A DNA stretch of 64,000 nt, from assembly GCF_033842475.1 (NCBI RefSeq), contig NZ_JAWXYB010000018.1:1347501-1411500 (forward strand). Reading direction: 5' to 3'. The position numbers were made by a program, and so were the translations under genes. The notes below the pieces were generated by a model, which was not told where the DNA came from, ran no database searches, and saw only the letters and a list, made by a program, of their open reading frames with translations. This DNA comes from Acidiphilium acidophilum. GTDB taxonomy: Bacteria > Pseudomonadota > Alphaproteobacteria > Acetobacterales > Acetobacteraceae. Positions 37,159 through 42,892 of the stretch are shown piece after piece. The stretch's first letter is position 1, and each line of letters begins with the position of its first letter.

Positions 37159-40100
37159 ATGAGTTCGACATTGCAGATCATCGGTCCGGCCGCCATCGAC
37201 CTGATCGACGGGCTGACCCTCTCATCGCTCAATCTTTTGCCCCCCGGCGGACTTGCGCTCATTGATGGCAACACGAGCGCAAGCATCAGCATCACCCTGA
37301 CAAGTTCGATCGCGCTTGCCGCGAGCAGCAGCGGCGGTGCAACCATCATCGACGGCGGTGGTGGCCTCACCCTCAGCGGCAGTCTCGCCGAGATCAACGC
37401 CGGTCTCGCCAGCCTGACGTTCAGCCCGACCGCAACGGGCAGCGCCATCCTCGGTGTCACCGCGACCGACGGCAGTGCGAGCGCGACCACGGCAATCGCG
37501 GTCGATGTCCTGCCCGACAATCCCCCGGCCTTCATCACCCCGCCGACCAGCCTCGCGCTCGCCTCGGGTATTGCCACACCGCTCGGGCTCACCCTCGCGG
37601 ATGATCCTGCCAGCGCGCTCGGCCAGATCGGCGCATCACCGGAAACCCTGACGGTCACGCTCGACGCCACTGCCGGTATCCTTCTGCTCGACCCCGCTGC
37701 GGCTCCGGGTATTGGCATTACCGGCAATGCGACCGACGCGATCACCCTGTCCGCGACCAGTGCCCAATTCGCGGCACTTGGCGCCGCGATCGGCGCGGTT
37801 ACCCTCGATTCCGCCACCGGCGGCGTCCTGCAATACGTCGCTCGCCAGACGGGCGGCCCGTTGCCGATCACCGATACCTCGGGCAGTCTCAGCTACAGCA
37901 CCACCGGCAGTCTCGCGACCAGCCAGGCCAGTTTCACCGCGACCAGCGGCGCCTGGCAGACCGCTGCCGCGTGGTCCGACGGGCAGAGCCCGGCCCTCGG
38001 CACCGGCGTGACCATTGCCAGCGCCACCATCACCGGCCAGGGTGTCGCGCAGAGCCTAATCCTCACCGGGACCGCCGATCTCGAAGCTGCGATCGGGATT
38101 GCCGGGAATACGTCCCTCGACACGGCGAGCGCCCTGCGTCTGGGGTCGGCCTATCTCGATATCGGCGGCAATTTGATCCTGACCGGCGCCAGCCTGTTCG
38201 TGGGCGCGAGCGCCACGCTTGGCGCCGGTAACGTCACCCTCGGCGCCGGTGCGGCGCTGACCGATTTCGGGACCATGACGATCGCGGGACTCGACGCCAT
38301 CGGCACCGCCCTGCTGCCGGGGGGCGCGACGCTTGCGGGCCCGATCGGCATCGCCGCCGGGGGCCTGATCGACTTCGCCGGCACGTTGCAGGCCGATTCC
38401 GCCGCGACCAGTCTCGGGATCACCGCCCTGTCGCTGGCGACCAATGCCACTTTGGCCGGGGCCGGCACGCTGATTGCCGGCAATTTCAGCATTTCGGAGA
38501 ATATCGTCGGCCCCGGCACGGTCATCGCCCTGGGTCCGTCGCCGTTCGAGGTTCTGGCCGGAAGCGTCGGCGGTGGCGCGCAATTCATCGTTGACCCCGG
38601 CGCCTCGCTCGAATTCGGCGCGGTTCCCTCGCTTTACGGCGTGTTCAACCCGACCCCGATCACGGTGGGGAACGACGCCACGATCAGTTTCGCCCCCGGT
38701 GCCTCGAACGGGCAGGACACCACCACCTACGCCAGCACGCTCGGCGAACAGGGTGGCGTGCTGGTGCTCGACAATCCCGAGAGCTTCGCCGGCACCATTC
38801 TCGGCTTCCTGCCGGGCGACCGGATCGACCTGTCCACCCTCACCAGCCTGTCGATTTTCAACATCACGGCAAATTCCTTCGAGGTCGAAGGGGCGGTGAT
38901 CGGCAACACCGCCAGCAGCGAAATCGTCACGCTCCATGCGAGTCTTGCTGCGGGCCTTTCGCCGCAGGTCGAGACCGATCAGGCCGGCAATCAGGTCATC
39001 GGCCTGCGCGCTGACACCGCCGCCCTCACGCTGAACGATACCGCCGCCGGCAGCGCGATCATCGATGCGGTCAATGGGGTCGCCACGCCGATCGAAGGTC
39101 TCGGCCTGATCGTGCCGGGCAATGGCAGTGCCGGGCTGGTCCTGACCATCAGCGCCAGCCACGGCGCGCTCAGCGACGGCGGTGCGGCCACCAGCGCGCT
39201 CACTTTGTCCGCCGCCACCGCGCTCGGCCTCAATGGCGAACTCGGCACGCTCGCCTACACCGCGCCTGCGACCGGCAGCGGCGATGTTTTGAATTTTACC
39301 GGCGGCACCGGGCTTGCGGGATTAAGTGCGGCCATTGCGGTCGATCTCGCCCCTGCCGCCACGCTCGATTTCACCGCGGCGAGCGGGGCCCGGTTCGATG
39401 CCGGCAATTCGTGGTCCGCCGGCATCGGTCCCGCTGCCGGCAACATCGCGAGCTTCGCGAGCCATGCCGGTGCGCCGCTGCTGGTGATCGGCCCAGGTGT
39501 TGCGAGCGAAGCCTCGATCGCGGGCGGCTACGATTTTACCGGCGAATTCGATCTTGCCGGCACCGCAGGGACCGCGCTGGCGATCGACCATGGCGGATTC
39601 GCCCTGTTCGACGCCGATGCGGTCGTTACCCTCGGGGGCGCTGCCGTTATCGGTGATACCAGCGGCAGCGGCACGCTGGGGATTGCCGGCACCGTCTACG
39701 CGCTGGGCAACCTCATTGCGGGCGGCAATGCCGCTGCCGCGTCCAGCCTGATCGACATCACCGGCAGCCTCCTGCTCGGCCAGACCCTCGATCTCGGTGC
39801 GGAGGGCAACGCCACGCTCGATCTCGCGGGCGATGCCGGATTCGCCGCCGCCACGCTCGGGGGTGCCGCCGCCGGGTTGATCCGCGCCGGGGGCACCGCC
39901 ACGCTCAGACTCGGTACGCTCGATCTCGTCGCGGGAACCATCGCGCTGAATGGCGCTGCCCAGGCGATCATCGATGCCGCCACCATCGCCAGCGGTGTCA
40001 TTACCCTGTCGGGCAGCGCCGCGCTCGAAACCCCCTTTGGTATCGACTTCGCGGGAGGCACCTTGGCGATCGGCGGTCAGGCCAGCCAGACGCTCGGCGG

Positions 40101-41670
40101 TGGCACGATCACCATCGCCGCCGCCGCCAGCCTCGACCTCGCGGGCACGCTTACCGCCGACTCTCTGGACCAATCCGGCCAGGCTACCCTGACGGGCGGG
40201 GCCGCGACCATTCTGAGTGCGGCCAGTCTCGCCGCCGGCGCCATGCTCGATCTCGCCGCCGGTACTCTCGCCGCTGGCAGCCTCACCATCGCGACGACCG
40301 CGACGATCGCGGGCAATGGCATCATCGGTGCCATCCCGACCGGTGTCGGTCTGATCTCGCTGGTCGCGAACGGTGTGCTCGAAGCCAGCGGCGGTACGCT
40401 CGATCTCGGTGCCGCCCTGACCGGCAACGCCACCATCGCCACCGGCGCCACGCTCGATCTCGCGGGTTCGGAGAGCGGCGGGACGATCAGCTTCGCCGGC
40501 GGGGCCGGAATGCTGGTGATCGGCAATGTCGCCGCCCTGCAGGATGCGGTCGCGGGTTTTGCCGCGGGCGATGCGGTCGATCTGATCGGCATCGCTCCCT
40601 CGCTGGTCAGCGTATCGGGCAACATTGTGAGCATCGCCCAGCCCTCGGAGGAATTCGCGCTCGATGGGGGAACGCCGACCATCGCCGCCGACGGGACCGG
40701 TGGAACCCTGCTCACGGTCGGCGGGGCGATGCCGTGCTTCACCCGCGGCACCAGCCTGCTTACCCCGAACGGCTACCGCGCGGTCGAAACCCTCCGCCCC
40801 GGCGATGCGCTGGTCACGAGCGACGGCATTCCGCGTGCGATCCGCTGGATCGGCTGGCGCACGATTGACCTTGCGCGCGATCCCGCCGCGCACCTGCTTC
40901 GCCCGGTGGTCGTCGCTCCCGGTGCTTTCGGCCCGGGCCGTCCGCGCCGACCTCTCGCGGTCTCGCCGCTTCACGCTATCCTTGGTGCCGGTGCGCTGGT
41001 CCCGGCGATCCTGCTGGTCAACAACGCGACCATCACCCGCGATGACACCGGTTTCGCGGTGACCTATTACCATGTCGAACTCGACCGTCACACGATCGTC
41101 TTCGCCGAAGGGCTGCAGACCGAAACCTATCGCGACAATGGCAATCGCGACCGCTTCCTCGAACATCTCGGCACACCCGGCGCACCGATGCCCTCATGCG
41201 CTCCGCTCATCCTCGGCGGGGTCGAACTCCGCGCCGCCCGCGCTGCCCTGCACCGCCGTGCCACCGCGCTCGGGCATAAAATCGTGCATGGCCCGGTGGC
41301 CGAAGCGATCCTGCCCTCGATGCCGCGCCGCATCGCCCCGCGCCGCCATGGACAGCGCCTGATCTTCGATCTGCCCCATCCCGCCACGCGCCTCACCCTG
41401 CGCTGCCGCACCGGCATGGCGAGCGATACCGATCCGGCCTCGGAAGATCGCCGCGCGCTTGGCCTCTGCGCCGGTACGCTCCGTGCCGATGGCCGCAAAA
41501 TCGCGAACTGGGCAGGGCAGGGGTGGCATCCTCGTGCGCCGGGCGACCGGGGCCTCTGGAGTACCGATCGCGCCGAACTGACCCTGCCGCGCGCCGCCAC
41601 CAGCATCAGCCTCGAATTGCTCGGCAGCGTCCCGCGCTGGGTCCGCGATCGGGCCGACCTGTCGATCTGA
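37159..41670 (+). CDS. Giant Hint-domain protein with beta-helix-like repeats
   Basis: A 1503-residue protein. Residues 1 to about 1185 are Gly/Ala/Ser/Thr-rich with many irregular repeats of the type GG(T/A)LTLxG and ATLDLAG, resembling adhesin or autotransporter passenger beta-helices. A Hint_2 domain (intein/Hedgehog-like) begins at Cys1193: PCFTRGTSLLTPNGYRAVET, LRPGDALVTSDG and IRWIGWRTIDL, ending with YYHVELDRHTIVFAEGLQTE near residue 1315. A further beta-rich C-terminal part follows. No signal peptide is visible, so export, if any, would be by type I or another route. Hint domains of this type are frequent in Acetobacteraceae; self-cleavage is possible but unproven. Confidence 0.85.
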   Translation: MSSTLQIIGPAAIDLIDGLTLSSLNLLPPGGLALIDGNTSASISITLTSSIALAASSSGGATIIDGGGGLTLSGSLAEINAGLASLTFSPTATGSAILGVTATDGSASATTAIAVDVLPDNPPAFITPPTSLALASGIATPLGLTLADDPASALGQIGASPETLTVTLDATAGILLLDPAAAPGIGITGNATDAITLSATSAQFAALGAAIGAVTLDSATGGVLQYVARQTGGPLPITDTSGSLSYSTTGSLATSQASFTATSGAWQTAAAWSDGQSPALGTGVTIASATITGQGVAQSLILTGTADLEAAIGIAGNTSLDTASALRLGSAYLDIGGNLILTGASLFVGASATLGAGNVTLGAGAALTDFGTMTIAGLDAIGTALLPGGATLAGPIGIAAGGLIDFAGTLQADSAATSLGITALSLATNATLAGAGTLIAGNFSISENIVGPGTVIALGPSPFEVLAGSVGGGAQFIVDPGASLEFGAVPSLYGVFNPTPITVGNDATISFAPGASNGQDTTTYASTLGEQGGVLVLDNPESFAGTILGFLPGDRIDLSTLTSLSIFNITANSFEVEGAVIGNTASSEIVTLHASLAAGLSPQVETDQAGNQVIGLRADTAALTLNDTAAGSAIIDAVNGVATPIEGLGLIVPGNGSAGLVLTISASHGALSDGGAATSALTLSAATALGLNGELGTLAYTAPATGSGDVLNFTGGTGLAGLSAAIAVDLAPAATLDFTAASGARFDAGNSWSAGIGPAAGNIASFASHAGAPLLVIGPGVASEASIAGGYDFTGEFDLAGTAGTALAIDHGGFALFDADAVVTLGGAAVIGDTSGSGTLGIAGTVYALGNLIAGGNAAAASSLIDITGSLLLGQTLDLGAEGNATLDLAGDAGFAAATLGGAAAGLIRAGGTATLRLGTLDLVAGTIALNGAAQAIIDAATIASGVITLSGSAALETPFGIDFAGGTLAIGGQASQTLGGGTITIAAAASLDLAGTLTADSLDQSGQATLTGGAATILSAASLAAGAMLDLAAGTLAAGSLTIATTATIAGNGIIGAIPTGVGLISLVANGVLEASGGTLDLGAALTGNATIATGATLDLAGSESGGTISFAGGAGMLVIGNVAALQDAVAGFAAGDAVDLIGIAPSLVSVSGNIVSIAQPSEEFALDGGTPTIAADGTGGTLLTVGGAMPCFTRGTSLLTPNGYRAVETLRPGDALVTSDGIPRAIRWIGWRTIDLARDPAAHLLRPVVVAPGAFGPGRPRRPLAVSPLHAILGAGALVPAILLVNNATITRDDTGFAVTYYHVELDRHTIVFAEGLQTETYRDNGNRDRFLEHLGTPGAPMPSCAPLILGGVELRAARAALHRRATALGHKIVHGPVAEAILPSMPRRIAPRRHGQRLIFDLPHPATRLTLRCRTGMASDTDPASEDRRALGLCAGTLRADGRKIANWAGQGWHPRAPGDRGLWSTDRAELTLPRAATSISLELLGSVPRWVRDRADLSI

Positions 41671-42277: not shown

Positions 42278-42892
42278 ATGACCAAGCGTACCGAAAGCAA
42301 GTACAAGATCAACCGCCGCCTCGGCGTCAATCTCTGGGGCCGCGCCAAATCCCCGATCAACAAGCGCGATTACGGTCCCGGCCAGCACGGTCAGCGCCGC
42401 AAGAAGCCGTCGGATTTCGGCGTGCAGCTGATGGCCAAGCAGAAACTGCGCGGCTATTACGGCAATATCGGCGAAAAGCAGTTCTACAAATACTATGAGG
42501 AAGCCGTGCGCCGCCGGGGCGATACCTCGGAAAACCTTATCGAATTGCTGGAGCGTCGGCTCGATGCCGTGATCTACCGGATGAAATTCGCGATCACCCC
42601 CTTCGCCGCCCGCCAGTTCGTCAGCCACGGCCACGTTCTGGTCAACGGCAAGCGCGTGAATATCGCCTCCTATCAGGTCCGCGATGACGACACGATCGAA
42701 GTGCGCGAAAAATCCAAGCAACTCGCCGTCGTGCTCGATGCTACCCAGAGCGCCGAACGCGACGTGCCGGAATACATGGAAGTCGATCACCGCGCGATGA
42801 AGGGCCGCTTCACCCGCGCCCCGAAACTCGCCGACGTGCCCTATCCGGTCCAGATGGAACCGAATCTGGTCGTCGAATTCTACTCGCGCTGA
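42278..42892 (+). CDS. rpsD: 30S ribosomal protein S4
   Basis: Primary 16S rRNA-binding protein of 204 residues, typical of alphaproteobacteria. It starts [20 protein letters not shown], contains [20 protein letters not shown] and the S4 RNA-binding fold [20 protein letters not shown] through [15 protein letters not shown], and ends with [11 protein letters not shown]. The ribosome site GAAGGAG precedes the ATG by 10 bases. Here it is a single gene outside the alpha operon, the usual arrangement in this class. Confidence 0.97.

Follow-up and report, generated by a model that had tools for sequence, protein, structure and literature searches.

The subject of this analysis is a gene lying in a 64-kb stretch of DNA (the window, 64,000 nucleotides in full) whose closest genome records are those of Acidiphilium. 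The open reading frame (ORF) 37159-41670 of the plus strand starts with ATG and codes for 1503 amino acids without an internal stop; no other gene-like ORF of the window is as large, as a preliminary description of the locus had stated, and ORF, Pfam search and predicted model agree with that description in making its product a Hint-domain protein with a beta-helix-like region. The protein consists of a long N-terminal passenger, a Hint domain and a C-terminal tail, and the new observation reported here is that the tail, for which no Pfam family exists, is carried also by glycosyltransferases, proteins resembling nonribosomal peptide synthetases (NRPS), a methyltransferase and a hydrolase.

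A Pfam scan of the whole protein yields Hint_2 (PF13403) as the sole family (residues 1192-1326, E 1.1e-42, 146.4 bits against a cut-off of 28.4), in accord with the earlier placement of the domain start at Cys1193, and no endonuclease family. In an alignment of the Hint domains of 92 ORFs, Cys1193, the predicted nucleophile, is found in 87 of the 88 rows having a letter in its column, the four gapped rows being truncated or partial and the exception, L026 (loci and stretches bear L numbers), being a misplaced row that does hold PCF. His1272 (90/90) belongs to an S-P-x-H motif that we take to be the equivalent of the intein block B TxxH, whereas His1305 and Glu1307 (each 91/91) and His1311 (88/91) presumably correspond to the block F region. 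A loss of catalytic His or Cys positions, which the preliminary description had named as the outcome that would speak against it, is thus not seen, and the self-cleavage and attachment chemistry that it had put forward as a possibility is compatible with the residues present. Hint plus tail, modelled with AlphaFold2 (51 sequences), reach a mean predicted local distance difference test score (pLDDT) of 92.2, and the first 140 residues of the model superimpose on the bacterial intein-like (BIL) domain of C. thermocellum 2lwy (Z 13.2, 117 aligned residues, root-mean-square deviation (rmsd) 2.3) and on the MchDnaB intein 6riy (Z 13.1, 113 aligned, rmsd 2.2); fold, Cys nucleophile and block B His together assign the domain to the Hint/intein superfamily.

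The C-terminal Asn (His-Asn) that distinguishes inteins and A-type BIL domains is, on the other hand, not a feature of the family, the matching column being occupied by Ser in 61 and by Thr in 28 of the 92 rows; the correspondence, with intein residue 145 falling near model residue 138, is our own reading of the fold alignment. In established intein chemistry the first N-S shift can take place without the terminal Asn but Asn cyclization cannot, and with Ser or Thr at this position only N-side cleavage would be expected, the tail staying on the Hint.

The passenger (37159-40734, 1192 residues) was described earlier as rich in G, A, T and S, and indeed these residues make up 52-58% of the region before the Hint, which is almost wholly beta in the predicted model. 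It contains 0 Lys, 0 Cys, 7 Arg and 83 acidic residues, compared with a mean of 2.9% Lys and 0.6% Cys in 14 long ORFs of the window, and the change in charge coincides with the Hint boundary. In 73 Hint proteins whose passenger is 150 residues long or more, Lys accounts for 0.6% and Arg for 0.9% of the passengers, compared with 9.8% Arg in Hint plus tail, and 53 of these passengers are Cys-free and 11 Lys-free. The model of residues 1-1190 is of moderate confidence (pLDDT 75.1, 17 sequences), falling below 50 between residues 720 and 782. Residues 1-250 match Ig-, cadherin- and pilin-type domains with Z of about 7-12 in the VIA structure comparison; residues 251-640 gave no separate fold match in structure comparison, the name of their cap motif being our own. 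Residues 781-1172 align by VIA with Hbp 1wxr (Z 15.0, 336 aligned, rmsd 5.4), other matches of this second beta-helix being SepA (Z 12.1), Ag43 (10.6) and IgA1 protease (9.5), so that a beta-helix of autotransporter-passenger type is present within the moderate confidence of the model. At the level of sequence the whole protein gave no match to solved structures with phmmer and none in NCBIfam. Structure prediction, which the preliminary description had proposed as a check, has thus returned a beta-helix, a Hint of intein/BIL fold and a separate beta tail. The features are collected in Table 1.

Table 1. Features of the Hint_2 protein, its downstream landmark and the NRPS-like carriers of its tail
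Feature	Position	Strand	Basis or remark
Hint_2 protein, 1503 aa	37159..41670	+	ORF, Pfam; start codon at one column in most full-length orthologs
Two Ig/cadherin-like beta-sandwich domains, residues 1-250, no Lys, one Arg	37159..37908	+	predicted model, fold matches
First beta-helix-like stretch, residues 251-640, 'GDxIDL'-type cap at end	37909..39078	+	regular short strands in model; modest confidence
Further beta-rich segment, residues 641-740	39079..39378	+	model, low to middling confidence
Second beta-helix, residues 741-1190, stops just before Hint	39379..40728	+	fold match to autotransporter passengers
Hint_2 domain, residues 1192-1326	40732..41136	+	Pfam; BIL/intein fold
Cys1193, predicted nucleophile, aligned with intein residue 1	40735..40737	+	alignment and fold match
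His1272 of S-P-x-H motif	40972..40974	+	90/90 rows
His1305, Glu1307, His1311	41071..41091	+	91/91, 91/91, 88/91 rows
C-terminal tail I, residues 1346-1503, helix and beta domain, D-x-R-x-L-G and W-[TS] motifs	41194..41667	+	model, profile searches
rpsD, kept downstream landmark, outside the proposed system	42278..42892	+	neighbour-gene comparison
NRPS-like tail proteins	L149:4783-9345, L151:2112-5480, L156:4315-8811		tail, then unnamed domain (FESLGxxCEFGFxQ)

A Pfam search with the tail alone gave no family at E up to 5, and the best fold match for it within the Hint-plus-tail model, a limited probe of the tail, is not meaningful (Z 3.3 to 5x7g). A profile built from 25 rows finds it in 10 places of the genome, namely in nine Hint proteins and at the C-terminus of one Hint-less, glycosyltransferase-2-like protein, and gives matches in at least 33 of 40 genomes of the family Acetobacteraceae. 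A further 26 stretches were picked among the matches listed so as to enrich for Hint-less cases, the criterion being, except for L159, a tail match starting late in the profile; in this selected, non-random sample, together with L133, 29 tail ORFs were found, 13 with and 16 without a Hint, five of the latter (L134, L135, L138 and two in L145) being excluded as fragments. Among the 11 intact Hint-less proteins L133 and L143 are 51% identical over 375 residues, the second having a glycosyltransferase family 2 domain (E 7.7e-26), while L136, L140 and L141 form one glycosyltransferase-like family with weak model matches: L133 and L141 reach glycosyltransferase models with E 0.002-0.004, below the cut-off, and L136 and L140, with no Pfam match, qualify through their 38-42% identity to L141 over about 650 residues. 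Three NRPS-like proteins (L149, L151, L156) have adenylation and carrier-protein domains, two of them (L149, L156) also a condensation domain, and bear the tail directly after the carrier protein; their unnamed last domain recurs after the tail of L146. Finally, the tail is found on a methyltransferase (L157) and on an alpha/beta hydrolase (L158). Profile-profile comparison of the tails of Hint and Hint-less proteins (probability 99.8, E 6.8e-29, 133 columns) firmly indicates their homology.

A second type of tail, that of the Hint proteins L013 and L016, is likewise present in two other proteins: the glycosyltransferase neighbouring L013 (E 2.5e-14) and L143 (E 1.5e-11), the latter bearing tails of both types. 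Since both types are found on glycosyltransferases, each of the two extensions that follow the Hint is an accessory domain of glycan enzymes. The first tail type thus follows a thioester-forming unit in two settings, the Hint and the carrier protein. On the other side of the ledger, 26 of the 92 Hint_2 ORFs end less than 60 residues after the Hint; in the stretches L083-L099 (Rhodoblastus, Ancylobacter and others) Hint_2 proteins of this short, tail-less kind are numerous. Of the preliminary description, which had spoken of an unknown beta-rich tail, the beta-rich character is retained in the model, but the tail recurs as a domain that glycan enzymes also possess; the partition into passenger, Hint and tail stands, while this recurrence, the Ig/cadherin-like domains preceding the beta-helix and the multiplicity of Hint_2 genes in the genome had escaped it.

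Eleven Hint_2 genes are present in this genome, the 10 paralogs of the window gene having all been inspected, and Hint_2 occurs in 119 of 150 genomes of Acetobacteraceae, several with more than 20 copies. One paralog (L012:6959-8998) is a fusion of a glycoside hydrolase family 5 (GH5) cellulase with Hint and tail, without a signal peptide obvious to the eye; three (L010, L011, L015) have passengers that we read as beta-helix-like from their sequences. At L009 (751000-766000) a TibC-like heptosyltransferase, an AIDA-like protein with Hint and tail, an IS110 transposase, a short Hint-tail protein, HlyD and a C39-type ATP-binding cassette (ABC) transporter follow one another, the C39 part having an ECG...H...D pattern that we take to be catalytic; a TibC-like gene precedes the Hint protein also at L065. 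The 1167-residue product of L016:6535-10038 combines in one chain a repetitive passenger, the Hint, a tail of the second type and a glycosyltransferase domain (Glyco_trans_1_4, E 2.2e-18), an arrangement in which the Hint could split enzyme from passenger, and the similar Hint protein L013 lies beside a glycosyltransferase gene. The remaining paralogs are L014 and L017; third-position G+C is 0.41 in L014:6888-8426 and 0.37 in a neighbour, most neighbours being near 0.7-0.8, and L014 was probably acquired from elsewhere. Judged by these architectures, the passengers (GH5 cellulase, AIDA-like, beta-helix) are interchangeable and the Hint constant, as expected of a processing module.

The window gene is preceded by an RNase E/G gene and followed by a DUF4345 gene and rpsD. 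One scan of species genomes gave 79 external Hint_2 loci, of which 17 (L026-L042), from the Acidiphilium/Acidocella group, contain its orthologs. The gene rpsD lies just downstream of the ortholog at 16 of these, the stored stretch of the other (L035) ending too soon. An RNase E gene was found upstream at three (L027, L028, L029) and the DUF4345 gene downstream at only four. In a tree of the 92 Hint domains the window protein and its 17 orthologs form one clade (support 100/90); across Hint plus tail the identity amounts to 57-97% for Acidiphilium with its close relatives and to 43-46% for Acidocella with its relatives, the Acidocella-type passengers (1064-1112 residues) being 33-38% identical to that of the window. 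The ratio of non-synonymous to synonymous substitution rates (dN/dS) stays under 1 for all segments compared between ortholog pairs, the lowest segment being the Hint for L027, L030, L033 and L037; for L028 the Hint has the same value as segment 641-740, the latter segment is lower for L031, and the values for the 97% identical L026 (tail 0.62) are noisy. ORF 37159-41670 is, by these comparisons, not a chance ORF, and the shared rpsD neighbour and the single clade identify it as an old, vertically inherited gene of the Acidiphilium/Acidocella group rather than a recent insertion.

As concerns export, the earlier statement that a signal peptide is lacking agrees with inspection of the sequence, in which no Lys or Arg occurs before residue 229. 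The search for a type I secretion system, also proposed at that stage, finds HlyD-type (328.7 bits, cut-off 208.65), TolC-type (266.6, cut-off 225.15) and ABC genes in the genome, which do not in themselves prove their use by the window protein. At 1177825-1181395 there is a HlyB-HlyD pair, after which come Sel1-repeat and glycosyltransferase genes, and the HlyD and C39-type ABC pair of L009, which adjoins two Hint_2 genes, recurs beside L062 of a close relative. Export would be independent of Sec, type I probably being the likeliest route by elimination.

From the computed architecture, fold, conservation and tail sharing we infer cleavage at 1192/1193, Sec-less export and a glycan as the tail ligand, in the following sequence of events. 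Synthesized with no Sec/Tat signal, the protein would be exported, probably through an ABC/HlyD/TolC channel of type I, and residues 1-1192 would fold into the Ig-like domains and beta-helices. The Hint would then convert the 1192-1193 peptide bond into a thioester on Cys1193, attack on which would free the passenger; with Ser or Thr in place of the terminal Asn, neither C-side cleavage nor splicing would follow and Hint and tail would remain joined, the tail presumably bringing to a glycan either the protein itself or the acceptor that attacks. On balance we lean slightly towards regarding the protein as a self-processing, non-Sec, probably type I-exported, adhesin-like surface or secreted protein, a reading supported by the intact catalytic set, the BIL/intein fold, a Hint that is usually the most constrained segment in distant ortholog pairs, the autotransporter-like passenger fold, the lack of Lys and Cys in the passenger, the exchange of passengers on a constant Hint, and the HlyD/C39-ABC pair beside two Hint_2 genes together with the HlyD and TolC families of the genome.

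Several observations weigh against this reading. Residue -1 (1192) is Pro in the window protein and in 35 of 88 rows, and Pro at this position is unfavourable for the N-S shift in some inteins. There is no HlyD or ABC transport gene beside ORF 37159-41670; strong HlyD/C39-ABC neighbours are found at one of 79 external loci and one of nine own-genome stretches, these being near-copies of each other. HlyD passes its cut-off in 142 of the 150 family genomes, with or without Hint_2, and being near universal makes co-occurrence uninformative as a test of type I export (G126, one of the seven genomes that lack a strong HlyD match, combines 12 matches to Hint_2 with a HlyD-like match in pieces). Calcium-binding nonapeptide repeats of the repeats-in-toxin (RTX) kind were not found by Pfam in the whole protein, and a C39-type double-glycine leader, considered at PPGG near residue 32, was dismissed, the motif not being conserved in the Acidocella-type orthologs L032, L037 and L038.

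Bacterial Hint domains, their cleavage and their variable hosts are already known in the form of A- and B-type BIL domains, according to the available portions of PMC7765530 and PMC2362128. With the B type, as described in the portion of PMC7765530 available, the window domain shares Hint fold, N-side reaction motifs, lack of a terminal His-Asn and variable hosts, but differs in its conserved tail of about 160-200 aa; the likeness is to the description and not to B-type sequences. The Hog part of Hedgehog is comparable, on the same partial source, in the order of passenger, Hint and attached C-terminal region and in the N-side cleavage alone that is expected, the region after its Hint bringing cholesterol to the thioester (PMC7765530). 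Here, however, the tail is a beta domain common to glycan enzymes and not a sterol region, and Pfam detects neither a Hedgehog signal (Hedge) domain nor a sterol-recognition region, the whole protein giving only Hint_2 and the tail alone nothing. Hedgehog Hint domains begin with Cys-Phe, as does that of the window. The beta-helical passenger is shared with the AIDA, Ag43 and serine protease (SPATE) autotransporters, and the TibC-like genes of L009 and L065 recall the bacterial autotransporter heptosyltransferases (BAHT, TibC), whose genes are often followed by an autotransporter, as the part of PMC4358343 available reports; at these two loci the Hint protein stands in the autotransporter's place. 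The window protein differs from that group in having Hint and tail instead of a beta-barrel translocator, and no TibC gene is seen beside it; a classical (type Va) autotransporter was rejected, the C-terminal 318 residues of the window protein being Hint and beta domain and Pfam showing no translocator family. With type I RTX adhesins it has in common the lack of an evident N-terminal signal, the Cys-free passenger and the type I genes of the genome, and differs from them in lacking RTX repeats.

Should water rather than an acceptor take the thioester, the Hint would simply shed a free passenger and the tail would be only a folding or secretion part. That the Hint is usable without a tail, as indicated by the ORFs ending shortly after it, and that a GH5 cellulase makes sense as a free enzyme both favour this hydrolytic course, which leaves unexplained, however, why two different Hint tails are shared with glycosyltransferases; we regard it as possible, if on the unlikely side. 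The tail's occurrence on glycan enzymes and the absence of any other anchor family in the Pfam scan could also mean that Hint and tail serve mainly for retention at the surface or for type I export, with slow or no cleavage and with the tail binding surface polysaccharide non-covalently, but for such a function a Cys/His set that is almost invariant would be unnecessary and we consider it improbable. Hint domains are reported, in the source text available, from secreted competition proteins such as MafB, and the tail might by analogy be a toxin freed by the Hint; a polymorphic toxin should, however, combine a variable C-terminal toxin with an immunity gene, whereas the tail is conserved across paralogs and orthologs and accompanies glycosyltransferases and NRPS-like proteins as a side domain, and the next gene, DUF4345, is not kept at most ortholog loci, which makes this explanation very unlikely. 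Almost no credence is given to a mobile intein or its decaying remnant, rejected in spite of the intein fold of the Hint: the domain is always C-terminal to diverse passengers, has no Asn at a C-extein junction and no endonuclease family in Pfam, and is inherited vertically at one site.

The self-processing reading can be extended, tentatively and by analogy with Hedgehog, to the nature of the acceptor: a surface polysaccharide or lipid-linked precursor held by the tail might take the passenger from the Hint thioester, a hydroxyl or amine of this glycan being the attacking group, and adhesins or enzymes would thereby become covalently fixed to surface sugar. The tail stands directly after an NRPS carrier protein as well as beside glycosyltransferase domains, as though its general role were to present acceptors in acyl or glycosyl transfer. 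Against this extension speak the Hint_2 ORFs that do without a tail and the methyltransferase and hydrolase among the tail hosts, which do not necessarily act on glycans; moreover, the tail-enzyme fusions could reflect only surface localization or protein-protein contact. We therefore hold a glycan acceptor to be a doubtful, though specific, proposal.

In the open-licence PMC papers searched there is no account of the Hint-tail architecture, and PF13403 is named in just two of them, one of which (PMC12487129) lists it among the families enriched in fast-growing marine bacteria. Hint_2 is thus abundant in Acetobacteraceae yet almost unstudied in the open-licence literature. With the present findings the tail acquires a glycan-enzyme context, and the question of Hedgehog-type processing in bacteria narrows to the identity of the passenger's new C-terminus. 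If sugar were indeed attached there, this would represent a new way of fixing proteins to the surface of bacteria, and might also provide a tool with which to prepare protein-glycan conjugates.

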